Source: Salipiger thiooxidans
GTDB lineage: Bacteria > Pseudomonadota > Alphaproteobacteria > Rhodobacterales > Rhodobacteraceae
Direction of reading: 5' to 3'
NCBI RefSeq assembly: GCF_900102075.1
Contig: NZ_FNAV01000004.1
Location: forward strand, 310,001 to 374,000
DNA: 64,000 nt
Made by a program: the position numbers and the translations under genes
In this document: positions 40,213 through 53,127 of the stretch, piece by piece
Numbering within the stretch: position 1 is the first letter of the stretch
Layout of the letters: each line of letters opens with the position of its first letter
Notes under the pieces: generated by a model
The model's input: only the letters and a program-made list of their open reading frames with translations
What the model was told of the DNA's origin: nothing
Databases searched by the model: none

Positions 40213-40289
40213 GCACCCATAGCTCAGCTGGATAGAGCGTCGCCCTCCGAAGGCGAAGGCCTCAGGTTCGAATCCTGATGGGTGCGCCA
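40213..40289 (+). tRNA. tRNA-Arg (anticodon CCG)
   Basis: A complete 77-nt cloverleaf with encoded CCA. Acceptor GCACCCA pairs with TGGGTGC (40279-40285). The anticodon stem is TCGCC/GGCGA with loop CTCCGAA, whose anticodon CCG reads CGG. The T arm is TCAGG-TTCGAAT-CCTGA. It marks the boundary between core-type DNA and the lower-GC island, a classic integration site. Confidence 0.97.
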
Positions 40290-40437
40290 TTAACCTCGAA
40301 ATTCCAAGATTTGGGCTCGCTAGTCAGGTTGCCCCGGCGCCGCCGAGTTTGCCGCGCGGTTGCCGTTCATCCTGTGATGGATTGGACGGACTTGGATGAA
40401 AAAATCATTAATTTACAGTCGGTAATGCCATTGTGGG

Positions 40438-40593: not shown

Positions 40594-40647
40594 TGTCATC
40601 AGCTTGCTGCTCGCCGCGTGTGGTCTTTCGATTTCCCTAACCTTTAG

Positions 40648-40735
40648 TTTCAGACGGTCGGATGCCTGCTTTCAAACGGTCATCTATTGACTTTCAACCG
40701 GTCGGAAGCGCAATTTCAATCGGCCGGATGGAGAC
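40648..40735 (+). repeat. Four direct repeats with exact 22-bp period upstream of the AAA/DUF4143 gene
   Basis: Copies begin at 40648, 40670, 40692 and 40714, each starting TTTCA; the consensus is TTTCAAnCGGTCGGAnG. Positions 1-5 and the CGGTC core are nearly invariant, and the tails vary. A degenerate fifth unit (TTTCGA) begins 22 bp earlier at 40626. The array ends 9 bp before the ATG at 40745. A period of about two helical turns puts all copies on one DNA face, as in operators or iterons bound by an oligomer. Confidence 0.85.
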
Positions 40736-40744
40736 AAACAGAAC

Positions 40745-41971
40745 ATGTACCCGAGATTCGCGAAAGAGAGGATAGAGGAGGCGCTGTCAGACACCCGCGT
40801 CGTTCTGATCTCTGGCCCGCGTCAGTCGGGGAAGACGACACTCGCGATGGATGTCGCCGCCGACAGGACACCTTTTCTGACATTGGACGATGCCAACGTC
40901 CTGCGATCCGCGGTCGATGATCCGGTCGGGTTCGTTCGCGGTCTCGATCGTGCCGTGATCGACGAGGTGCAACGTGTTCCGGACCTGCTCCTCGCGATCA
41001 AGAACCTGGTTGATGATGACGAGACGCCAGGTCGCTTCCTGCTGACAGGATCTGCCAACCTGATGACCCTTCCGAAGGTCGCAGACTCCCTGGCCGGGCG
41101 CATGGAAGTCATCAGGCTTCTGCCGCTAAGCCAGTCTGAGATTATTGGCACCAAGTCGAATTTCATCGATCGAGCTTTTGCGGGAGAAATGCCTTCGTCA
41201 AAACACATAGTCGTTGGCCATGAGCTGATCGAGGTCGTTTTGTCCGGCGGCTATCCGGAGGCTCTTGGTCGAAAGAGATGGGCGCGCAAGCAAGACTGGT
41301 ACCACGGCTACCTTGATGCGATCGTTCAGCGAGACGTGCGTGACGTGGCCCAAATCGATCAGCTCGCAGTCATGCCCAAATTGTTGTCCGTGCTCGCTGA
41401 ACATTCAGGGCAATTGGTCAATTACTCAGCTATCGGTGGCGCTCTCGATCTCAATCACGTGACGACCCGGAAGTACGTAGGCGTTTTCGAGAGCCTCTAT
41501 CTTGTCCATACATTGCAGCCTTGGTTCACGAACCGTCTGAAGCGTCTTACCAAATCGCCCAAGCTGCACTTTCTCGATGCCGGGTTGCTCGCAGCAATGC
41601 GCGATGTGTCACCAGATGTGGTTGCGAAGGATAAGACCTGCTTCGGTCCGATCTTGGAAACCTTTGTGTTCAGCGAACTGCGCAAAATCGCTTCATGGAG
41701 CGAACAGAGATGCTCCTTCGCTCACTTCCGGGACAAGGATAAGAACGAGGTCGACTTGGTTTTGGAGAATCGTCGCGGCGAAGTCATCGGGATTGAGGTC
41801 AAGTCTTCAGCAACGGTATCAGCGGCGGACTTTTCCGGAATGCGGAAGTTGGCCGATGCATGTGGGGACAAGTTCGTGCAGGGTATGGTGCTCTATGATC
41901 ACGATAAGATCGTTCCCTTCGGAGAGAACATCTTCGCGGTTCCGCTTTCGAGCCTTTGGAGTTCGTCATGA
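40745..41971 (+). CDS. AAA ATPase with DUF4143 domain (AAA_14 type)
   Basis: A 408-residue P-loop ATPase. Walker A GPRQSGKTT (residues 24-32), Walker B AVIDEVQRVP (Asp73, Glu74) and sensor segment FLLTGSANL define AAA_14. The C-terminal DUF4143 domain carries a PD-(D/E)xK-like pattern, EVDLVLENRR then GIEVKSS. Cellular role of this common family is unsettled; many members sit in mobile or defence loci. First gene of the 40745-47324 set; its stop overlaps the next start (ATGA). The 22-bp repeat array directly upstream may be its own binding site. Confidence 0.88.
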   Translation: MYPRFAKERIEEALSDTRVVLISGPRQSGKTTLAMDVAADRTPFLTLDDANVLRSAVDDPVGFVRGLDRAVIDEVQRVPDLLLAIKNLVDDDETPGRFLLTGSANLMTLPKVADSLAGRMEVIRLLPLSQSEIIGTKSNFIDRAFAGEMPSSKHIVVGHELIEVVLSGGYPEALGRKRWARKQDWYHGYLDAIVQRDVRDVAQIDQLAVMPKLLSVLAEHSGQLVNYSAIGGALDLNHVTTRKYVGVFESLYLVHTLQPWFTNRLKRLTKSPKLHFLDAGLLAAMRDVSPDVVAKDKTCFGPILETFVFSELRKIASWSEQRCSFAHFRDKDKNEVDLVLENRRGEVIGIEVKSSATVSAADFSGMRKLADACGDKFVQGMVLYDHDKIVPFGENIFAVPLSSLWSSS

Positions 41972-44457
41972 ATAAAGTTCAGGAAGTCCCTTTTCGGGTT
42001 TCTGCCCGAACGGCTCGCCTGATTGGGCGTGAAAATGTTGCTACCGCAGAGAGCGCAATCAGCGAGTTGGTCAAGAACTCCTATGACGCCGATGCGTCTT
42101 TCTGCATTGTTCGGATATCGCCAACCTACACCGGGGTTCCGGAAAAGATTTCGAAGGATGAATTCGACCGACTGGCTGAGTGGGGCCTGAACCCCGAAAA
42201 CCACTACGATCTTGATGGCGAAACAGCCAATCTGCGCCCATGCCTCGCCGATGAGCACAGTCCGGAGGCCGAACTCATTCGGCATCTTGTGACGATCACA
42301 GTGATCGACGATGGTGCAGGTATGGGAGACGACGCAATCCGTGATGCATGGATGGTCATCGGAACAGCCAACAAAGAACTGGAATCTTCATCCAAGCTTG
42401 GTCGCACTAGGACCGGAGCCAAAGGGATCGGTAGGTTTGCCCTTGATCGGCTGGGAGCACGATGCCAACTGCACTCGAGCACCATCACAGAAGCTGGTAA
42501 TAGTGAAACGCTGACTTGGACCGTTGATTGGAACAAATTCGAGAAAGACGGAGCGGTCCTAGACGAGGTAACTGCTCAGATTGAGCTAGGAACGGCTGGA
42601 TTCCAAAAAGATTTGTCCGCAGTTGCGGCAATCGCGGATCTCGAGGAGCTTGCGAAAAAGGCGTCGGAAAGTCGTACTGGCACATCAATCGAAATTTCGG
42701 AGGTGCGCGACAACTGGTCGAGGGACTCGATCAAGAAGCTTCGACGCACGCTGGGTGTTCTTGCGCCCCCCGACGAACAGCGTGCATTTAGCATTTATCT
42801 GCGCGACGACCGAGATCCCAACCAATCAAACAGTGTCGCGTCCGACGTACTTGAGGATTTTGACTACAGGCTGACCGCAAAGGTTCAGTCGGATGGTGCG
42901 GTGGAGTTCACGGTCGTCCGCAATGAACTCAACCATGATGAGTTTCCGAAAGCGCTCTTCATGCGGAAAGACATGAAAAAGGAACCGTTTACCAAGGAAG
43001 CTTTCAGCAATCGGGCCACAAGCTACGTAAAATCGCTCGAAGATCTATTTCCAGGAGAGTCCGAGCTCTTTTTCAATCGCGCGCGGTCCATCGGTCCGTT
43101 CGAGGTTGTCCTGCGGTTCTTCAAGCTTCAAATGCCATCAAAGGCCGAAGATCGACAGTATCCATATCGGAGCTTTCAGCCGCAACGGCGAAAGGAATGG
43201 CTCGATATCTTTGGGGGTATTCGCATTTATCGAGACAACTTTGGTGTGAGGCCCTACGGCGAGCCCAAAAGCGGAGCATATGACTGGCTGTCGCTTGGTC
43301 AGCGAAGGGCCGCAAACCCTGCAGCACCCACACGCCTCAACTGGCCCGTTCCACCTCAGAATATTGCTGGAACGGTGAACATTTCTCGCAATGAAAATAG
43401 CGTTCTTGTCGATCAGTCAAACCGCGAAGGCATTATCGAAACAGAAGAATTCCGGGTATTCCAGGCCCTCATTCTGAGGTTCGTCAATGAACTGGAAAGG
43501 GATCGGAGCCGTGTTCTCTACAACCTACTTGAGACCTACAAAGTCGAAAATGCCGATAAGCAAGTGCGGTCAGAAGGGTTGAAACTGGCACGCAAAATTG
43601 AAGCGCAACCTGAGAGCTCCTCAGACGATGTACGCAAGCTTGCCCAGACGGTGACCGTCCAAGAGAACATGCTCAAGGAACAAGCTGAGGATCAGGTCAT
43701 TCTGAGGTCACTGGCGACACTTGGCACCGTAATGGTGTCCTTTGCCCACGAAATGGGACAGTTGAACACGCTGGCAGGACGCAATCAGCAGCTCGCCGCG
43801 TTGTTGGCACGCCATCTGGATGAAAAAGAATTTGCCAACAAGAACGAGGCGTTCAATCCCTTCGCCATCCTTCGTGACATGGAAGCCTCCGACAGGAAGG
43901 CGGCGCAGTGGTTCAATTTCGCACTTTCGGCCGTTCGCTCCGGGCGCCGTCGGCGATCCAACGTCGATATGCGCAGTCACCTAGAGGAATTGAAGGTCGT
44001 TTGGGATGGCTTCCTTCGGCCGAGAGAAATCGCATTGGATCTCAATTTCGAAGATGGATTCGCAGCAGAGATTCTGGCGTTCGAAATTGATATTGACAGC
44101 ATTTTCAACAACTTGATCCTGAATTCATTCGAAGCTTTCGTCGATGGCATGGGGGGAGGCGAGCGGCGAATAAAGATAGACATTTTTGCTAAGAGTGAGA
44201 AGGAGGTTGGTATCATCTATGAAGATAATGGTCCTGGCATTCACAGCTCAATCAAAGATCCGAGCGAAATATTCGAGTTCAACGTCACGACAAAGAAAGA
44301 TCGTGAAGGCAAAGGAGCAGGCACTGGCTTGGGTATGTGGATACTTGAGTCGGTGGTGCGCTCCTACGATGGGACCGTGCGTGCGTACCGTAAGACCGAA
44401 AGTTTCGGCTTCCGATTGGAGTTTTCTTTGCCGATAGCAGGGAAAAGTGGTGTCTGA
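41968..44457 (+). CDS. Double GHKL ATPase: Hsp90/MORC-like N-terminal module plus histidine-kinase-like C-terminal module
   Basis: An 829-residue cytosolic protein with two Bergerat-fold modules. Module 1: N box AISELVKNSYDADA (Asn37, Asp40), G1 VIDDGAGMG, G2 TRTGAKGIGRFALDRLG, similar to Hsp90/MutL/paraMORC ATPases. Module 2: a HisKA-like helix LVSFAHEMGQ-type motif with His594, N box NNLILNSFEAF (about 714-724), G1 YEDNGPGI (about 751-758) and G2 GKGAGTGLGMW (about 781-791). No membrane helix or sensor domain. A stand-alone receiver gene follows 2 bp later. ATG at 41968 overlaps the upstream stop; a TTG at 41956 is an unlikely alternative. Confidence 0.85.
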   Translation: MNKVQEVPFRVSARTARLIGRENVATAESAISELVKNSYDADASFCIVRISPTYTGVPEKISKDEFDRLAEWGLNPENHYDLDGETANLRPCLADEHSPEAELIRHLVTITVIDDGAGMGDDAIRDAWMVIGTANKELESSSKLGRTRTGAKGIGRFALDRLGARCQLHSSTITEAGNSETLTWTVDWNKFEKDGAVLDEVTAQIELGTAGFQKDLSAVAAIADLEELAKKASESRTGTSIEISEVRDNWSRDSIKKLRRTLGVLAPPDEQRAFSIYLRDDRDPNQSNSVASDVLEDFDYRLTAKVQSDGAVEFTVVRNELNHDEFPKALFMRKDMKKEPFTKEAFSNRATSYVKSLEDLFPGESELFFNRARSIGPFEVVLRFFKLQMPSKAEDRQYPYRSFQPQRRKEWLDIFGGIRIYRDNFGVRPYGEPKSGAYDWLSLGQRRAANPAAPTRLNWPVPPQNIAGTVNISRNENSVLVDQSNREGIIETEEFRVFQALILRFVNELERDRSRVLYNLLETYKVENADKQVRSEGLKLARKIEAQPESSSDDVRKLAQTVTVQENMLKEQAEDQVILRSLATLGTVMVSFAHEMGQLNTLAGRNQQLAALLARHLDEKEFANKNEAFNPFAILRDMEASDRKAAQWFNFALSAVRSGRRRRSNVDMRSHLEELKVVWDGFLRPREIALDLNFEDGFAAEILAFEIDIDSIFNNLILNSFEAFVDGMGGGERRIKIDIFAKSEKEVGIIYEDNGPGIHSSIKDPSEIFEFNVTTKKDREGKGAGTGLGMWILESVVRSYDGTVRAYRKTESFGFRLEFSLPIAGKSGV

Positions 44458-44459
44458 CG

Positions 44460-45143
44460 ATGTTGCTATATGTAGATGAAGAAGCGGACCAGGGGCGGCG
44501 AGTAGTACTCGCCGCTGCCCTCTCTGGCTATTTTGGGGATGATGAAGTTGCGACGGTAGTTCCCGAGGCGGATATCAATACGATGCTGGAGAAGATCATA
44601 GAATCCCGTTGTGAGGTCTTGATCACGGATTTTCGCCTTAGCGAATATAAGGCCGACGTCCAATATTCGGGACTGGATCTTATTCAGGAGGTGCAAAAGC
44701 ATTTCGAGGGGTTCCCCTGCTTCCTGACAACAAATTATGTTCCGCACGCGCTTGAGCAGCTCCATGATGTAAACTTGATTTTCCCCAAAGATGACTATCT
44801 TGCTGAGAAGACCGCTTCAGGTGAAAAAGATAAAAGTAAACTTCCATTCTTTCTGCGAGTTCGTACGAAAATTGAAGAGTACAGGGCTGACCGGCGCCGG
44901 TTGGAAGAATCCTTTCAGGAGTTATACCAGCGGTCACTAGAAGAACCCTTGCGAGCAGAAGAACTGCAGGTATTGCTCGATCTCGACGGGCGATTGGAGC
45001 GAGCCATTGGGGGGCGAGTAGCAGCAGTCCCTCGTCTGCTAAAAGAAAACGCCCTCGAACCATTCAATAATCTACTGCGCAGGGCCGCTGATCTCGCTGC
45101 CGAGATTGAAACTGAACTTGGGCAGCCACGGGAGAATGAATGA
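44460..45143 (+). CDS. Stand-alone response-regulator receiver protein with helical C-terminus
   Basis: A 227-residue protein. The first ~120 residues have the receiver residues in place: acidic pair Asp6/Glu7, phospho-acceptor Asp57 (VLITDFRLSE), Thr90 (CFLTTNY) and Lys110 (IFPKDD). The remainder is a charged helical or coiled-coil region with no DNA-binding motif, so output is probably by protein contact. The natural phosphodonor is the GHKL protein encoded 2 bp upstream. Its stop overlaps the HNH gene start (ATGA at 45140-45143). Easily missed because overall similarity to CheY is low. Confidence 0.75.
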   Translation: MLLYVDEEADQGRRVVLAAALSGYFGDDEVATVVPEADINTMLEKIIESRCEVLITDFRLSEYKADVQYSGLDLIQEVQKHFEGFPCFLTTNYVPHALEQLHDVNLIFPKDDYLAEKTASGEKDKSKLPFFLRVRTKIEEYRADRRRLEESFQELYQRSLEEPLRAEELQVLLDLDGRLERAIGGRVAAVPRLLKENALEPFNNLLRRAADLAAEIETELGQPRENE

Positions 45144-45727
45144 TGCTTCGAGATCGCCGACCCGAGCGGTCCAACCCGCCATCCAAAGGCCACTACAGGG
45201 CTTATAAAACGGAGCTCAAGACGGATTTTGGAGAGTGTTGCGGCTACTGCGATACGCCTGATTATATACTGGGGGGCATTAGGGTGTTTCAAATTGATCA
45301 CTTTGCACCCAAGAAGAGGTTTCCAGAGCGAAGCGCCACTTATTCCAACCTTATCTATAGTTGTCCATTTTGTAACCGCGCAAAGTGGGACACTTGGATT
45401 GGTGATGATCCTGACACACCAAACAACGGAGAAGTCGGTTTTGAGGATCCTTGCTCGCTTGAGTACGAAACGCATCTTGATCGCTCAGTCGATGGCCGTT
45501 TTCTGGCGTTGAGTCCCGTCGGAACCTACATGATCCGCGAGTTGAAACTTGGCCTCATGCGTCATCAACAGATCTGGCAATCTCAAGCAATCAGGAAACT
45601 TAGGTCGCGTCTTCGCTTTTTGAAGGAGGATCCGCGTCTTACAAATGAGAGAAAAATTGCGCTGCTCGAGCAGATTGATGAGTTGACACAGGAATATGAA
45701 AGATTCAAACTCAGTGCCATTGCGTAG
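45140..45727 (+). CDS. HNH endonuclease with zinc knuckles
   Basis: A 195-residue protein with a beta-beta-alpha-metal nuclease core. Zinc pair CCGYC (Cys34, Cys37), catalytic VFQIDHFAPKKRF (Asp53-His54), Asn70 (TYSNLIYSC) and second zinc pair CPFCNRAKW (Cys75, Cys78) form the order expected for HNH nucleases; the last H is Asn79. A helical C-terminus follows. It probably cuts DNA, alone or with the GHKL ATPase. It overlaps the receiver gene by 4 bp and the methyltransferase gene by 32 bp. Confidence 0.85.
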   Translation: MMLRDRRPERSNPPSKGHYRAYKTELKTDFGECCGYCDTPDYILGGIRVFQIDHFAPKKRFPERSATYSNLIYSCPFCNRAKWDTWIGDDPDTPNNGEVGFEDPCSLEYETHLDRSVDGRFLALSPVGTYMIRELKLGLMRHQQIWQSQAIRKLRSRLRFLKEDPRLTNERKIALLEQIDELTQEYERFKLSAIA

Positions 45728-47324
45728 TAATTCTTCCTACGATCCGAAAGGAAACGGGGTTGTCTACACGCCAGCAGCAGTCACTGAAGTGGTTGTTGCT
45801 CAGGCGTTGGCGAAACTGGATGTCACGGCGATCGGCTCTGTTCTTGAGCCAAGCTGTGGTGACGGTTCGTTTGTGCGCACGCTGTTGGCGACAAGCTCTC
45901 TGAATATCTACGCGCTGGACAAAGACGAAGAAGCGATCACACACTGCAAAGCCGAATTCGACAAGGCTCATGTCTATTGTGGCGACTTCTTTGAGGACCT
46001 GCCGGAGGTTTGGCCTAAGCAATTCGATATCATCATTGGTAATCCACCGTATGTGAGTTGGCATCGTTGTGACCCGGATACGAGGTCGCGTCTTGACCGC
46101 ATCGGTGAGCAATATGATTTTGAAGGCAGGCATCTCAGGAACGCATGGGCGGGTTTCGTTGTGAAAGCCACGATGAAGCTGGCACAAAAAGGTGTCCTCG
46201 CTTTCGTTATTCCTTATGAATTCTTAACTGTATCTTATGGCAAGCGCCTTCGGGACTGGATGGAGGGTCACTTCACGACCCTTGATATCTACATTCCGAA
46301 TGAGAAAGCTTTCAAATCCATAGACCAAGATGCAGTTACTGTTATTGCGACCAAAGGAGAAGGTCCGTGTGAAACTGTGCTGCACCGAGTAGCATCACTT
46401 GAGACAGCAGGGGTTCAATCAAGTTGCCGTCTTTCGTCTGGAGCCATCAAAGCCGCCTCTTTAGAGATGAAAGGATTCTTACTGGATAGTGAGGTGCTTA
46501 ACCTAATTCAGAAGATCGACCAGAACTGTGAACGTGTCTCGGATTTTTGCGATAATGCTGCTGGTACTGTCACCGCTGCGAACGACTATTTTATTTTGTC
46601 CCGAGCTGACCTGGAGTTTAATAAGCTCACTCGTTGGGCGCGGCCGATCATAAAAAAATCAAGTTTCCTCGGCGATGCGGTTAGTTTTTCGGTCGAGCAC
46701 TTTGATGAGCTCGAATCTACCGGTAAGGCTTGCTATCTTCTGGATTTTTCCAAATTACACGCTGAAAAGTTGCCTAAGGCAGTTCAACGATATATAGAAT
46801 TAGGTGAAGAAGAAGGTATCGATCAGCGTTACAAGTGTAGGCATAGAAAGGACTGGTTTAAGGTTCCGGTTGTTCAACCGAATGAGGGTTTTTTCTTCAA
46901 ACGCTCACACATCGTCCCGCGGTTTTGCGTAAATGAGTGCGGTGTGCTTGCAACCGATTCAGCTTATCATATCCGGATGAAGCCGGGGGTCGCGATTCAT
47001 GACCTTTGTGCGTCGTTCTACAATTCGTTGACGCTGCTCTTCGCAGAGATCGAGGGGAGGTTCTACGGTGGCGGTGTTCTTGAGGTTACGCCCAATGAAT
47101 TTAGGAGACTTCCGGTTCCGTTGAGTGAATTCTCGGCGTCCGATTTCTCTAGATTTGAGGGTAGGTTTACGCTCGCCGATGGTGCCCAGGCTGCAATACA
47201 GTTTTCTAATGATCGGTTAATGGCAAAACTTCAGCTCTCTACATCAGATTTAGATACTATAGAAGGAGCTCGGCAAACTTTGCAACGCCATAGGCTTCGC
47301 CACGGAGGCAAGTCCCAGAGCTAA
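45696..47324 (+). CDS. N6-adenine-type DNA methyltransferase (Eco57I-like)
   Basis: A 542-residue class I SAM methyltransferase. The X/I region has YTPAAVTEVVVAQAL and VLEPSCGDGSF (residues about 49-59), the SAM acidic residue is in YALDKDEEA, and the catalytic NPPY is at residues 116-119 (IIGNPPYVSWH). The long C-terminal half is a target-recognition-type domain with no nuclease motif. It would protect host DNA from the HNH enzyme encoded by the overlapping upstream gene. Last gene of the coupled set; no terminator was recognised after it. Confidence 0.9.
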   Translation: MKDSNSVPLRSNSSYDPKGNGVVYTPAAVTEVVVAQALAKLDVTAIGSVLEPSCGDGSFVRTLLATSSLNIYALDKDEEAITHCKAEFDKAHVYCGDFFEDLPEVWPKQFDIIIGNPPYVSWHRCDPDTRSRLDRIGEQYDFEGRHLRNAWAGFVVKATMKLAQKGVLAFVIPYEFLTVSYGKRLRDWMEGHFTTLDIYIPNEKAFKSIDQDAVTVIATKGEGPCETVLHRVASLETAGVQSSCRLSSGAIKAASLEMKGFLLDSEVLNLIQKIDQNCERVSDFCDNAAGTVTAANDYFILSRADLEFNKLTRWARPIIKKSSFLGDAVSFSVEHFDELESTGKACYLLDFSKLHAEKLPKAVQRYIELGEEEGIDQRYKCRHRKDWFKVPVVQPNEGFFFKRSHIVPRFCVNECGVLATDSAYHIRMKPGVAIHDLCASFYNSLTLLFAEIEGRFYGGGVLEVTPNEFRRLPVPLSEFSASDFSRFEGRFTLADGAQAAIQFSNDRLMAKLQLSTSDLDTIEGARQTLQRHRLRHGGKSQS

Positions 47325-47474: not shown

Positions 47475-47600
47475 TTAGCTCGCCGAGCATGCTGCCCGAC
47501 CGCGCTTCTTCGCTGGTGTGGGCCGCCGGGTGCGATCTACAGCTACGGCCAGGGCTTCTTTGCGGTCTTCAGACGACAAAGACAGGAAGGGCTCAGGCAT
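47475..47600 (-). pseudogene. Truncated AbiEii-type toxin gene (5' fragment)
   Basis: The ATG at 47600 overlaps the antitoxin stop by 8 bp, the normal AbiE arrangement. The peptide starts MPEPFLSLSSEDRKEALAVA, as AbiEii/AbiGii nucleotidyltransferase toxins do. Similarity ends after about 23 residues, and a TAA follows at codon 42. The catalytic GS-x-DxD core is missing, so no active toxin can be made from it. The interval 47325-47474 has no recognisable gene. Confidence 0.6.
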
Positions 47601-48186
47601 GCGCCGCCTTTGCGACACTGCGTGCAAGCCAGGTCGGGAACTGCGGTGCTGCCGTTACCAATTCGTCAAACGCCGCTGCGGGCAGTTTCTGCTTCAGCGA
47701 TCTAAGAGCTGTCTCTGCCTGTTCCGGCCCGAGCCAGGCCAGAGCGCGAACAGCACTGCCTGCCGGCCTCTTCCCCAGGGCGAGTTGCCATCGGGGGGCG
47801 TGGCGCAGTTCCACGAGTTGTTTGCCCAATGAGAGCGTGCGGCTGCGACCCGAGGTCAGGTACACGGAGCGAACAGACACTTGCGTGGTCAACCCAAGCG
47901 CATTCGCTTCGGCGGCGCCGGTTGGAACAATGACTTCGCCACGTTGCGCCGCGAGGGCCTCGACGGCCTGTTCCACGGTCGGTGCGCGCGTTCCAAACCG
48001 GCTTTTGATCAGTCGCAGGTAAACCCCGCGTCCGGCACGGATCAACTGGCCGCGCTCGGCGAGGCGCGACAAGGCCTGATCCACACCGGCACGGCTGCCG
48101 AGGTGCAGCAGCCCCTTTGCGGCAAGTGGCGCTCCTTCCGGAAGTCCCTCTGCATGGGTCAATATCTGTTCGGCAAGGCGCTGCAT
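47593..48186 (-). CDS. AbiEi-like antitoxin / DUF6088-type transcriptional regulator
   Basis: A 197-residue protein with an N-terminal winged HTH ('GAPLAAKGLLHLGSRAGVDQ', then LSRLAERGQLIRAGRGVYL) and the C-terminal AbiEi-type region with VPTGAAEANALGLTTQVSV and RHAPRWQLALGKRPAGSAVR. Members are type IV antitoxins that repress their own operon. An inverted repeat upstream (48197-48226) fits autoregulation. The cognate toxin gene directly downstream is truncated. The ATG has GGAG 9 nt upstream. Confidence 0.82.
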   Translation of the reverse strand: MQRLAEQILTHAEGLPEGAPLAAKGLLHLGSRAGVDQALSRLAERGQLIRAGRGVYLRLIKSRFGTRAPTVEQAVEALAAQRGEVIVPTGAAEANALGLTTQVSVRSVYLTSGRSRTLSLGKQLVELRHAPRWQLALGKRPAGSAVRALAWLGPEQAETALRSLKQKLPAAAFDELVTAAPQFPTWLARSVAKAAHA

Positions 48187-49335: not shown

Positions 49336-52300
49336 GTGCCAGTTGACGAAACTGCAATACGCCAATGGGCCGACCGCCACGATTGTCGTAGCAACCTACC
49401 AATACTTGTTCGCCGCCTGATCACGGAAACCACGGGATCCCTTGTTTCCATGCGCTTTCCCGGAAACGAAGCGGTCGATTTGCCTGGGCTTGACGGTCAA
49501 GTGGAATGTGAAGCCGGGACAGTCTGGGTGCCGCAAGGCCGAAGCGTATGGGAAATGGGTTGCAATGTAGACCCTCGAAGTAAAGCCGACGGTGATTATC
49601 AAAAGAGAACTAAAGAAACGCCGCAAGACCAGCGCGAGAATAGTGCATTCGTCTTCGTGACGCCGAGGAGGTGGAACGGAAAAGAAGACTGGCTTGAAGA
49701 GCAACGTGGTGAAGGCGCTTGGGCGACCGTTGAGGCATTAGACGCCATAGACCTTGAAACTTGGCTCGAAGACGCGCCTGCCACGGCCCGTTGGTTGGGT
49801 GAAAAGCTGGGTGTCGCCTGGCCCGGGCTGAAGACACCTCACGAATGGTGGAATAGCTGGGCGACAGCTTCGGTGCCGCCATTGTCCATCAAGCTTGTTT
49901 CTTCTAGACGACACAACGAGCAGAGCGTGTTGTTGCAGAAGTTGCGCGACCGAGAGCAAATAGTTCCGGTTCAAGCTGACGATAGAGGGGAGGCCGTTGC
50001 ATTTGTCGTTGCAACAATGATCGAGGCCGATGCTCTCGATCTTCTTGATACGACAGTTGTTGCCACATCTCGCGATGCCAGAATTCCTACGAGCGCAAAC
50101 CACCTTATTGTCGTTGCGGACGGCGGAGATGGGGAGGAGTTGGATTTTGGTGATCGACGAAATTTGACTATTGTCCGCGCATATCCCAAGGGCCGTTTAG
50201 ATGTCCGGGAGGCACTGCTGCTTTCGCACGTCCCCTCAGATACCTTTCGCGCTGAACTCGAGAGTATGGGGCTATCGCGTGATGACGCGGATAACCTCTC
50301 CATCAAGGTCGGTCATTCTGTTCCTGTATTGCGGCGTCAGCTCTCTCGTGATCCTGAGGTTCGGCGGCCTAGTTGGGTTAGAGATCGCGCAGTGGCAAAA
50401 CGTGTCCTCCCGTTCGCATTGGCAGGCTCGTGGGTTGAGCGCGAGAGCATGGATGACAGCACAATTCTCCAGCTATTGGGTGATTTTCGGGATTGTGAAG
50501 TGGAACCAGTTCGAGACGAACTGCTCGCTTTGAACGACGCACCAATTACTCGCTATGGGCATGTGAATGTCGTCGTATCACAAATCGACGCACTTTTTGC
50601 CGTAGGGCCTTACATAGATCGAGACGATCTGGACCGTTTCTTTCAACTCTTGCCGGAGTTGCTGGGCGATAGAGACCCCGCCTTAGATCTGCCTCAAGAT
50701 CAGTGGTACATGGCCAATGTGTTGGGTCACGCGAGAAGTTTTTCGGGTGCCCTTCTTTCCGGTCTCGGCGACGCGTTGGGCATTCTATCCGTTCATGGTG
50801 CAGAAATCTGCGGTGATAGGTTGGGAGTTGACCTTTCATATCGTGCCGCGCAAATTGTTCGGTCACTGATGCAAGGTGCTGACCAAGAACGCTGGCTTTC
50901 TATTCGGGGACACCTACGAACATTGGCGGAGGCATCTCCATCTGCGTTCCTTGATTGCCTTGAAGCTGAGCTTAGAGAACCAGTACCAGCCATACGCGCC
51001 ATCATGGGAACCACTGAAGGTTTCGTGAGTGGCGAGTGTTTGCGGACCAATTTGCTTTGGGCGCTTGAACTTTTGGCTTGGCACCCTGTTCACTTTTCTC
51101 GTGTCGCAGAGATTGTTTTTGGCCTTCGCCGTCTGGAGGTGGAAGACAACTGGTCAAACTCGCCGAAATCAACCGCCCGTTCTCTGTTCAGGGCTTGGCT
51201 GCCTGCCACCGCTCTCAGTGCTGCGGAAAAGATAGCTGTCTTACGGCGCTTGTCCGCGCAGTCTCGATATGCTGCGATGGACGTCTGCATCTCTCTTCTT
51301 CCAGGAGGTGGCCCAAATTTCGCTTCACGCACCGCGAGGCCGCAATGGCGAGCACTGGATGCAGAAGTGCCGTCACCGACAAATGCGGATGTCCGCACGG
51401 CGGCGATCGAAGCCAGCCGACTACTGCTCGACTTGGCTCCATTTGAAAAGTCGGAGCTGGAACAGCTGTTAGAGGTTGCGACACGTATTCATCCTGACGA
51501 CCTATCTCGCTTGGTCATCGAGGTCGAGAGTTGGTCAGCGACAGCAACCGATGAGGACAAAGCTGATCTTCGGCACAACCTTCGTCGGCGCGATGTTCTT
51601 CGTGCTTATCAGGAAGGTGAAGAGGACGAACAGTTGGCAGCCGCGCTTCGGCGTATGGAAGAGGCTTTATCCCCTCAGTCCCCGACTGCTCGCCACCGTT
51701 GGCTGTTTGAAAATTCCCACGTTGAGTGGCGTGCGCTGGTGGAAGACGAAGGAAATGGGCGCTTGTCATGGCAGGAGCGAAACGCACTTGTCGAAGAGCG
51801 CCGCCGAAACGCCATCGCTGAAATCAGGGAGCTATTGGGAGATCAAGCGGTTCTTCCGTTTGCGCTTAGCGTGAAGCAACCAGAACTGGTGGCTCAAATC
51901 TTGGTTCCGCAAGACGCGGCAGTGGAAACGGCGACCCACTGGGTCTCGGCTGCGTTGCGCACCGAGGCAAATGATCAATCCAATCCATTCCTGCGGCAAC
52001 TTCTATGGAGCGCAGGTTGGATCGACCTTGCCGCAGTCGTGGCTGGCCTAGAGGCACAAGGAATCCTGAACAGTGAAGTGGAGCGCCTGAGATTCGCCGA
52101 GCACCTTCCTGGTCGTTCAATTGGCTGGCAGGTCGCAGAAAGCTTGGGCGAAGACGTGGCTTCTGCATTTTGGAATTCGGCATCAATTCATATTTGGGAT
52201 GACACGCCGTCCACCGAAGTGGAGTACGCCGTTACAAAGCTCATTGAACATCAGCGTCCTAGATCTGCGTTTTCAGCCGTTTCTCTGTGGAGGAACAAGC

Positions 52301-53127
52301 TGCCAGCAAGCCGGTGGGTCGAGATCCTACAAGCAGTTGCTCACGGAGAGGAACGGGATGGGCCTTTTCCAAGTTCCTACAATCTGGATGAAGTGCTTCA
52401 AATCCTCGACGCAGACGAAGAAATCTCTGACGATCAAATCGCCAATATAGAACTGCCCTTCGTGCCTCTTCTGAGCTCATACGGACATAGGCGTCACAAG
52501 CGTACACTGGCCTTGCACCGACAACTTGCTCGCGACCCTAAGTTCTTTATTGAGCTACTTTGTTGGCAGTATCGTCGGCGCGATGGGGCGGAAGAACTCG
52601 AGCGAGAGGAGCTATCGGCGGAGAAGCGCAAGTTTCTTGCAGAGCTGGCCTATCATTCCTTGGAGGGGTGGAAGAAAGTCCCCGGCTGCAATGACGAAGG
52701 TGCGATGTCTCCGGATGATTTCACCTCATGGGCTGATAGCGCCTTAAGACTTGCGGCGGATGCTGACCGCAAGGAAGTCGCTGAAATCCATTTTGGAGCT
52801 CTGCTCGCACGACTGGCGCGGAGACGGTCCTGGGATGACTGGTTGCCTGACGTCATCTTGGAGTATCTAGATCGCTCTGAATGCGCCGGACTAAGAGAGC
52901 GGTTCTGTATGGGGGTCCGAAATGCACGAGGTGTAACAACGCGCAGCCCGTACGATGGCGGGGAGCAAGAGCGCAGACTTGCTGAGCGCTATCGAGACTT
53001 GGCTGCTAGATATGGCAATTCCCACCCTCGGTTGTCGGAAAGCCTCATGTCCATTGCAGAAGGATATGAATGGGATGCACGTCGAGAAGACGAGCGGGCG
53101 GCAGTGGGTGAGCGCTGGCATCCTTGA
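49336..53127 (+). CDS. Very large protein with nuclease-like N-terminus and degenerate STAND-like ATPase region
   Basis: A 1263-residue cytosolic protein, GTG start at 49336 with GAGG 5-6 nt upstream. Residues about 35-110 (AVDLPGLDGQVEC, VWVPQGRSVWEMG, KADGDYQKRT) resemble a PD-(D/E)xK-like domain seen at the head of large defence proteins. Residues about 185-345 follow a STAND NTPase layout, but the P-loop position reads VPVQADDRGEAVAF without GK[ST]. A winged-helix-like part (VGHSVPVLRRQL) and ~850 residues of helical repeats follow. Family not named with certainty. Convergent with the RES gene. Confidence 0.7.
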   Translation: MPVDETAIRQWADRHDCRSNLPILVRRLITETTGSLVSMRFPGNEAVDLPGLDGQVECEAGTVWVPQGRSVWEMGCNVDPRSKADGDYQKRTKETPQDQRENSAFVFVTPRRWNGKEDWLEEQRGEGAWATVEALDAIDLETWLEDAPATARWLGEKLGVAWPGLKTPHEWWNSWATASVPPLSIKLVSSRRHNEQSVLLQKLRDREQIVPVQADDRGEAVAFVVATMIEADALDLLDTTVVATSRDARIPTSANHLIVVADGGDGEELDFGDRRNLTIVRAYPKGRLDVREALLLSHVPSDTFRAELESMGLSRDDADNLSIKVGHSVPVLRRQLSRDPEVRRPSWVRDRAVAKRVLPFALAGSWVERESMDDSTILQLLGDFRDCEVEPVRDELLALNDAPITRYGHVNVVVSQIDALFAVGPYIDRDDLDRFFQLLPELLGDRDPALDLPQDQWYMANVLGHARSFSGALLSGLGDALGILSVHGAEICGDRLGVDLSYRAAQIVRSLMQGADQERWLSIRGHLRTLAEASPSAFLDCLEAELREPVPAIRAIMGTTEGFVSGECLRTNLLWALELLAWHPVHFSRVAEIVFGLRRLEVEDNWSNSPKSTARSLFRAWLPATALSAAEKIAVLRRLSAQSRYAAMDVCISLLPGGGPNFASRTARPQWRALDAEVPSPTNADVRTAAIEASRLLLDLAPFEKSELEQLLEVATRIHPDDLSRLVIEVESWSATATDEDKADLRHNLRRRDVLRAYQEGEEDEQLAAALRRMEEALSPQSPTARHRWLFENSHVEWRALVEDEGNGRLSWQERNALVEERRRNAIAEIRELLGDQAVLPFALSVKQPELVAQILVPQDAAVETATHWVSAALRTEANDQSNPFLRQLLWSAGWIDLAAVVAGLEAQGILNSEVERLRFAEHLPGRSIGWQVAESLGEDVASAFWNSASIHIWDDTPSTEVEYAVTKLIEHQRPRSAFSAVSLWRNKLPASRWVEILQAVAHGEERDGPFPSSYNLDEVLQILDADEEISDDQIANIELPFVPLLSSYGHRRHKRTLALHRQLARDPKFFIELLCWQYRRRDGAEELEREELSAEKRKFLAELAYHSLEGWKKVPGCNDEGAMSPDDFTSWADSALRLAADADRKEVAEIHFGALLARLARRRSWDDWLPDVILEYLDRSECAGLRERFCMGVRNARGVTTRSPYDGGEQERRLAERYRDLAARYGNSHPRLSESLMSIAEGYEWDARREDERAAVGERWHP

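Follow-up and report, generated by a model that had tools for sequence, protein, structure and literature searches.

A conserved four-gene restriction-modification-type cassette with predicted two-component regulation in Salipiger thiooxidans

A row of five adjoining genes on the forward strand of Salipiger thiooxidans was analyzed within a 64,000-nucleotide stretch (contig NZ_FNAV01000004.1, positions 310,001 to 374,000; hereafter, the window) of an assembly of 5.87 Mb and 68 contigs. The first gene (window positions 40745 to 41971) encodes an AAA_14 and DUF4143 domain ATPase and is immediately preceded by four 22-bp direct repeats with the core TTTCANNCGGYC (40648 to 40735, forward strand). 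It is followed by genes encoding an 829-amino-acid (aa) GHKL protein (41968 to 44457), in which an H-box (H594-E595) lies between an HATPase_c_3 and an HATPase_c domain; a stand-alone receiver-like protein with D57 at the phosphoacceptor position (44460 to 45143); an HNH nuclease with H54 and CxxC pairs (45140 to 45727); and an N6-adenine DNA methyltransferase (MTase) of the M.Eco57I/BseCI/TaqI type with NPPY at residue 116 (45696 to 47324). The DUF4143 and GHKL genes are joined by an ATGA at 41968, the GHKL and receiver genes are separated by a 2-bp gap after 44457, the receiver and HNH genes share an ATGA at 45140, and the HNH and MTase genes overlap by 32 bp at 45696. The ATG within the first ATGA gives the 829-aa GHKL protein, and its near relatives begin with MNxxQEVPF. 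A preliminary description, made from the DNA letters alone, had listed these genes, their overlaps and coupled junctions, and the array, and the open reading frames (ORFs), the reading of the junctions, and Pfam place all of them where that description had put them.

The evolutionary unit at this locus consists of four genes, GHKL, receiver, HNH, and MTase, and not five. GHKL relatives were gathered from genomes, plasmids, and IMG/VR contigs, and their neighbors were called with profiles. The removal of loci whose GHKL protein was at least 90% identical to one already kept left 99 of 159 loci, 25 of which exceed 320 bits with the GHKL profile and are referred to here as the HNH clade; the locus set excludes duplicates (L001, L007, L008, L091 to L093, and L109) and loci collected for other questions (L094 to L108 and L113 to L160). 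The contig of L030 ends directly after GHKL, and 24 of the 25 clade loci are therefore informative. In all 24 nonredundant informative loci, a receiver gene and then an HNH gene lie 3' of GHKL; both genes of L011 and the HNH gene of L021 were located by a six-frame profile search. An N6 MTase gene is found inside the block in 23 of the 24; it lies downstream in 13 of these and immediately 5' of GHKL in the other 10, and the exception, L018, is a locus in which the contig ends first. The MTase gene of L011 lies approximately 0.7 kb past HNH and is a partial profile match. Because it is found on either side of the block, the MTase gene was evidently kept although moved, and the persistence of linkage despite this change of position suggests function rather than mere common descent. 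The preliminary description had treated all five genes as one unit and had proposed co-occurrence across genomes as a check; the unit holds for GHKL, receiver, HNH, and MTase, which are conserved together even in distant relatives, and does not hold for the DUF4143 gene and its array.

Salipiger, Thalassobacter, Ensifer, Rhizobium, and Bacteroides finegoldii are among the named hosts, which therefore belong to at least two phyla. Plasmid pTPRO7 of Salipiger profundus (NZ_CP014803.1) carries the same gene row as the window. The distribution is patchy. With the window's own genome counted, GHKL relatives at an E value of ≤1e-40 were found in 2 of 20 genomes of the genus, 3 of 295 of the family, and 3 of 398 of the phylum, and those at ≤1e-20 were found in 2 of 289 genomes of the class. 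None were found among 50,697 phage records at ≤1e-10.

The two GHKL domains of the 829-aa protein are an N-terminal HATPase_c_3 (4.2e-15) and a C-terminal HATPase_c (6.1e-16). The N-terminal domain is paraMORC-like and matches GHKL-bearing restriction enzymes of the BbrUII/HgiDII family (6.4e-10), and the C-terminal domain matches, as a profile, solved histidine kinases in the PDB. H594, which lies between the two domains, aligns in a profile match to 4gcz with the histidine of the FixL H-box, which we take to be the FixL phosphoacceptor. Every aligned row has it, 31 of 31 among near relatives and 14 of 14 among more distant ones (both sets include the window). No membrane-spanning stretch was found by hydropathy in the window GHKL protein or in any of the 25 clade GHKL ORFs. 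Among the 31 GHKL relatives, two PADLOC models of PDC-M43B gave weak matches, in 3 and 1 of the 31, with the best being 8.1e-6.

In the PDB, the profile built from 26 receiver rows matches receivers of the CheY type (best, 5.3e-5), and D57 and T91 are invariant in all 26 rows, with K110 being present in 24. The hallmarks of a two-component pair, comprising the H-box histidine, a kinase-type GHKL domain, and the receiver aspartate, threonine, and lysine, are thus present by alignment. Pfam recognizes no output domain in the window receiver, and the only families matched in more than two of the 26 rows at an E value of ≤0.1 are Response_reg (13 rows) and OKR_DC_1_N (3 rows), the latter of which is a receiver-like fold. 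In the absence of a recognized output domain, the receiver most likely acts by protein contact.

The HNH protein matches Pfam HNH (1e-6), with H54 and N70 invariant in 23 of 23 rows. Its best PDB profile matches are to PtuB of retron Ec78/Septu (9vh1, 3.2e-7), and it also matches the PADLOC PtuB model (7.2e-15). The MTase matches Eco57I (6.6e-14) and M_Eco57I_C (6.8e-33) in Pfam, and its gene adjoins the nuclease gene, as in Type II restriction-modification (R-M). H594, D57, and H54, on which a His-Asp relay and a nuclease would depend, are all invariant in the aligned rows.

The DUF4143 gene and its array form an addition that is separable from this cassette and do not belong to the conserved core. 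The repeat copies begin at 40648, 40670, 40692, and 40714, and their self-match at lag 22 was reached by none of 2,000 dinucleotide shuffles over lags 14 to 40, indicating that the spacing is not due to chance. Among the 64 start-upstream regions of the window (that of the array included), only the array region reaches this score at lag 22, and two others attain an equal score at lags 21 and 27. The core motif alone is not rare, with 7 matches at up to one mismatch, a number reached in 15 of 100 shuffles, and Tandem Repeats Finder did not report the array. The DUF4143 protein matches AAA_14 (8.6e-26) and DUF4143 (1.4e-45) in Pfam and matches the PADLOC candidate PDC-S01 over its full length (9.5e-175). 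Residues E335-x-D337 and E351-x-K353 are invariant in all 17 rows of its alignment and form what we take to be a PD-(D/E)XK-like pattern.

Periodicity was examined in the 170 bp 5' of the start codons of 37 DUF4143 genes (5 duplicates removed) at lags 14 to 40, with P values from 200 mononucleotide shuffles per locus (floor, 0.005). In all 13 genes with at least 44% identity, the window gene included, the best lag was 22, which exceeded shuffles at a P value of <0.05 in 12, with L138 being the exception. Among the 24 more distant genes, the period is 23 bp and significant in 7, and no array reaches significance in the other 17. Close to the start codon, arrays of 22 bp thus precede the DUF4143 gene in the window (40648 to 40735) and in L109, L116 to L119, L121, L125, L126, L137, L139, and L140, and arrays of 23 bp precede the more distant relatives in L122 to L124, L127, L128, L131, and L147; by eye, the array letters vary from one branch of the DUF4143 protein to another. 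The gene and its array look like a cognate, self-regulated module. In 8 of the 13 close cases with flanks, the next ORF lies on the opposite strand, and the remaining 5 comprise one Dpd/DISARM-like operon, one contig end, one broken case, and two cassettes, namely, those of the window and pTPRO7. Because the arrays precede close DUF4143 genes mostly outside the cassette, the array belongs to the DUF4143 gene; the array noted in the preliminary description is real and accompanies that gene, not the cassette. Within the HNH clade, the DUF4143 gene occurs in 2 of 25 loci, again the window and pTPRO7, with some other contigs beginning at or within GHKL. It also lies 5' of GHKL in genome G898, with a gap of approximately 130 bp. 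The Dpd/DISARM-like case is L132 (6942 to 18910; genome G733), in which a DUF4143 gene and array head a second defense-like operon whose genes match models of DruE, DpdE (2.3e-185), and DrmMI.

Six loci (L014, L015, L033, L035, L064, and L112) form a sister set with the order N6 MTase, GHKL, a gene of 227 to 236 aa, and then a metallo-β-lactamase (MBL)-fold protein, which occupies the HNH slot in all six. The MBL fold was called by Pfam in two of the six and by a profile seeded on L015 in the others, and the records of L014 and L015 annotate it. The gene after GHKL scores as a window-type receiver in two of the six, and an alignment that includes all six sister loci (A4) has one column with aspartate in 54 of 54 rows. 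In a FastTree phylogeny, the only tree method used, covering the 94 of 99 loci that passed a length filter, the HNH set (labeled by score threshold, with L030 included) and the MBL set are each split off by a single branch, with supports of 99 and 100, in a tree in which some rows are flagged for long branches or unusual composition. The regulator thus appears to have stayed constant while the effector was swapped between the two clades. Such a swap offers a clean comparison separating regulator genes from effector genes. Other GHKL relatives are accompanied by an N6 MTase and an unrecognized third gene or by a C5 MTase with or without Vsr. A third-gene family with the pattern HxD ... HPxxHxQxGG ... 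RxP (alignment A8) occurs in the N6 MTase cousins L049, L050, L054, L060 to L062, L066, L068, L073, L081, L082, and L090; it has no PDB match at an E value of ≤1, and of the four of its 12 members scanned with Pfam, three have no match and one weakly matches EF-hand_14. On a Chlorohelix plasmid (L013), a distant GHKL relative lies amid genes annotated as cysteine desulfurase, DUF4007, PAPS reductase family, and FtsK/SpoIIIE, a set that presumably resembles a phosphorothioation (Dnd-like) locus.

The closest described relatives are GHKL kinase-like proteins that adjoin receiver-like proteins and R-M genes (HEF_HK, PF19191; Response_reg_2, PF19192), which are presented in the accessible passages of Bellieny-Rabelo et al. 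(2021; PMC8011034) with HATPase_c_3 and HATPase_c on both sides of a new H-box domain and with prominent links to C5 methylases and Vsr, and to HNH_2 in some genera. These loci share with the cassette, as far as those passages describe them, the arrangement HATPase_c_3, H-box, and HATPase_c, an adjacent receiver-like gene, R-M genes, and a lack of membrane spans. The preliminary description, which could match the combination to no named system, had implied that nothing similar had been described; this does not stand, since GHKL/receiver pairs linked to R-M were already on record, though neither Pfam model matches here. PF19191 was found in none of 31 GHKL rows and PF19192 in none of 26 receiver rows at an E value of ≤0.1. 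Among cousins, PF19191 matches weakly in 2 of 53 (best, 0.0032), and PF19192 matches in none of 54 at ≤0.01; the window's own genome has no PF19192 match. PF19192 loci occur in 8 of 299 genomes; all 8 have a C5 MTase and 5 of them Vsr, and the neighboring GHKL frames score 92 to 128 bits against the cassette GHKL profile. The GHKL frames of these loci are approximately 1,000 aa long, whereas the cassette has a GHKL protein of 829 aa, an HNH nuclease, and an N6 MTase. Assignment to PF19191/PF19192 was rejected because neither model matches the clade, and the HNH/N6 branch is its own variant of the known GHKL/receiver R-M association, with another nuclease and another methylase.

Iyer, Abhiman, and Aravind (2008; PMC2292703) predicted that MORC and paraMORC GHKL ATPases occur in R-M operons, in some cases together with HNH nucleases, so the association that the preliminary description had cited is indeed stated there. 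The cassette likewise has a GHKL ATPase in an R-M neighborhood; however, it has a receiver, and the terms receiver and response regulator do not occur in the accessible text of that paper, which places a superfamily II helicase in approximately 70% of MORC neighborhoods, whereas Pfam finds none in the cassette. The HNH protein resembles PtuB of Septu and retron Ec78, with which the cassette shares the logic of an ATPase plus HNH, but Pfam and PADLOC find neither PtuA nor a reverse transcriptase among the five proteins, and the partners are instead GHKL, receiver, and MTase. Assignment to Septu was rejected at 26.1 of 150 bits against the PtuB equivalog. A Shedu protein with a GHKL N terminus (VcSduA, paraMORC3) is antiphage by experiment, and its GHKL domain is proposed to control the nuclease (PMC12137116); in the passages concerned, it is a single protein with a DUF4263 nuclease and has no kinase half, receiver, or MTase, whereas the cassette has all three. 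In PADLOC 2.0.0, no named system model matches the window GHKL or receiver protein, in keeping with the preliminary description, and the likeness to PDC-S01 concerns the DUF4143 addition only. HATPase and REC are among the domains of predicted, unvalidated defense systems in the legend to Fig. 6F of a 2026 paper (PMC13092281), and one of those systems is possibly a relative of the cassette. No description of the HNH/N6 cassette or of the DUF4143 arrays was found in the accessible open-license literature.

Taken together, the domain content and conservation of the four genes suggest that some bacteria may keep a DNA-cutting defense under a two-part signaling switch. With a probability of roughly 0.5, we read the cassette as a mobile four-gene R-M-type module whose nuclease is under a cytoplasmic two-component switch. 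The N-terminal paraMORC-like GHKL domain would be an ATP-driven DNA clamp or a sensor for unmethylated or invading DNA, and DNA sensing would alter the C-terminal kinase, so that phosphate passes from H594 to D57 of the receiver. By protein contact, the receiver would then release or activate the HNH nuclease, while the MTase would mark host DNA and protect self. The DUF4143 ATPase and its array would be a separate module, probably self-regulated, that heads the operon in the Salipiger/Thalassobacter lineage. Phosphotransfer, nuclease gating, and defense against phage are steps that we infer from sequence. The fuller version, in which a MORC-like clamp fused to a histidine kinase switches on interchangeable nucleases (HNH or MBL-fold) via a stand-alone receiver and a cytoplasmic His-Asp phosphorelay gates restriction, is offered tentatively, at somewhat less than even odds; it would amount to a modular immune signaling chassis with a fixed regulator and an exchangeable effector. 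If the relay works, two-component phosphotransfer would govern restriction directly and not transcription, and the cassette would be a compact experimental system for the 2008 and 2021 predictions on GHKL proteins in R-M loci.

Several observations weigh against the two-component reading. ZraS and CpxA, the better-scoring PDB kinases, leave the H-box without significant cover, and the FixL chimera alone covers it. Of the 14 more distant GHKL rows, 3 carry D or H in place of E595, and D753 and G757 are each lost in 1. The window receiver scores 14.2 bits against a Response_reg cutoff of 30.2, which is below the Pfam threshold, the lysine is absent from 2 of 26 receiver rows, and PADLOC 2.0.0 gives no match to the window receiver and, for the window GHKL protein, a weak match to a type II restriction endonuclease model (REase_II, 5.1e-5) alone. 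In addition, the GHKL gene is interrupted by IS66 in pTPRO7 (L009, 7442 to 10100), is a fragment in Roseovarius azorensis (L003, 1965 to 2953), has a split frame in Rhizobium phaseoli (L011, 9932 to 12559), and is truncated at a contig edge in G898 (L243, 15 to 854). With GHKL broken in several close relatives, the module is frequently not kept intact, which is perhaps a sign of cost.

The same GHKL protein could instead be an ATP-driven clamp or looping factor that joins HNH and DNA in an R-M system, with the receiver being a structural adaptor and no phosphate being transferred. We consider this rather unlikely. The matches of the N-terminal domain to BbrUII/HgiDII and REase_II speak for it, and a looping model for MORC and paraMORC proteins in R-M operons is given in the accessible part of PMC2292703, but an adaptor need not retain His-Asp relay chemistry, of which H594, D57, and T91 show no variation and K110 almost none. 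A regulatory role of another kind, in which the GHKL/receiver pair sets timing or dosage and keeps HNH off until host DNA has been methylated after transfer, with no phage sensing, appears improbable. C proteins hold restriction off until host methylation after transfer, and the occurrence of the loci on plasmids and next to a tRNA gene, with many relatives on IMG/VR contigs, agrees with such a need; however, the receiver has no recognized DNA-binding output, and a kinase with a paraMORC-like half would be a costly timer. Very improbable, in our judgment, is a five-gene unit in which the DUF4143 ATPase and array serve the entire system as its sensor or regulator. The ATGA coupling of DUF4143 to GHKL in the window and pTPRO7 and the gene order in G898 speak for it; against it are the presence of DUF4143 in only 2 of the 25 HNH-clade loci (with the caveat of contigs that start at or inside GHKL), the finding that 2 of the 13 close DUF4143 genes with flanks are with the cassette, and the approximately 130 bp between the two genes in G898. 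A core role for DUF4143 was rejected because arrays, flanks, and clade neighborhoods separate it from the cassette.

On the upstream side, the locus is flanked by a tRNA-Arg (CCG) gene predicted by ARAGORN (40213 to 40289, forward strand), which is a possible attachment site for an island. The search of the window for another copy of the tRNA 3' end found none, so the other end of such an island was not found there; the 3' part of the gene plus 99 bp (40245 to 40388) has a 97% counterpart in the same genome, on contig C56 (L113, 9801 to 9944), possibly as the other island end or as part of a second island. Just 3' of the cassette lies a reverse-strand gene for an AbiEi-like antitoxin or regulator (47593 to 48186; PADLOC, 1.8e-62). 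Farther downstream, a forward-strand gene (49336 to 53127) encodes a 1,263-aa protein with no Pfam match at an E value of ≤0.1 and a weak match to PD-Lambda-4_A (2e-4).

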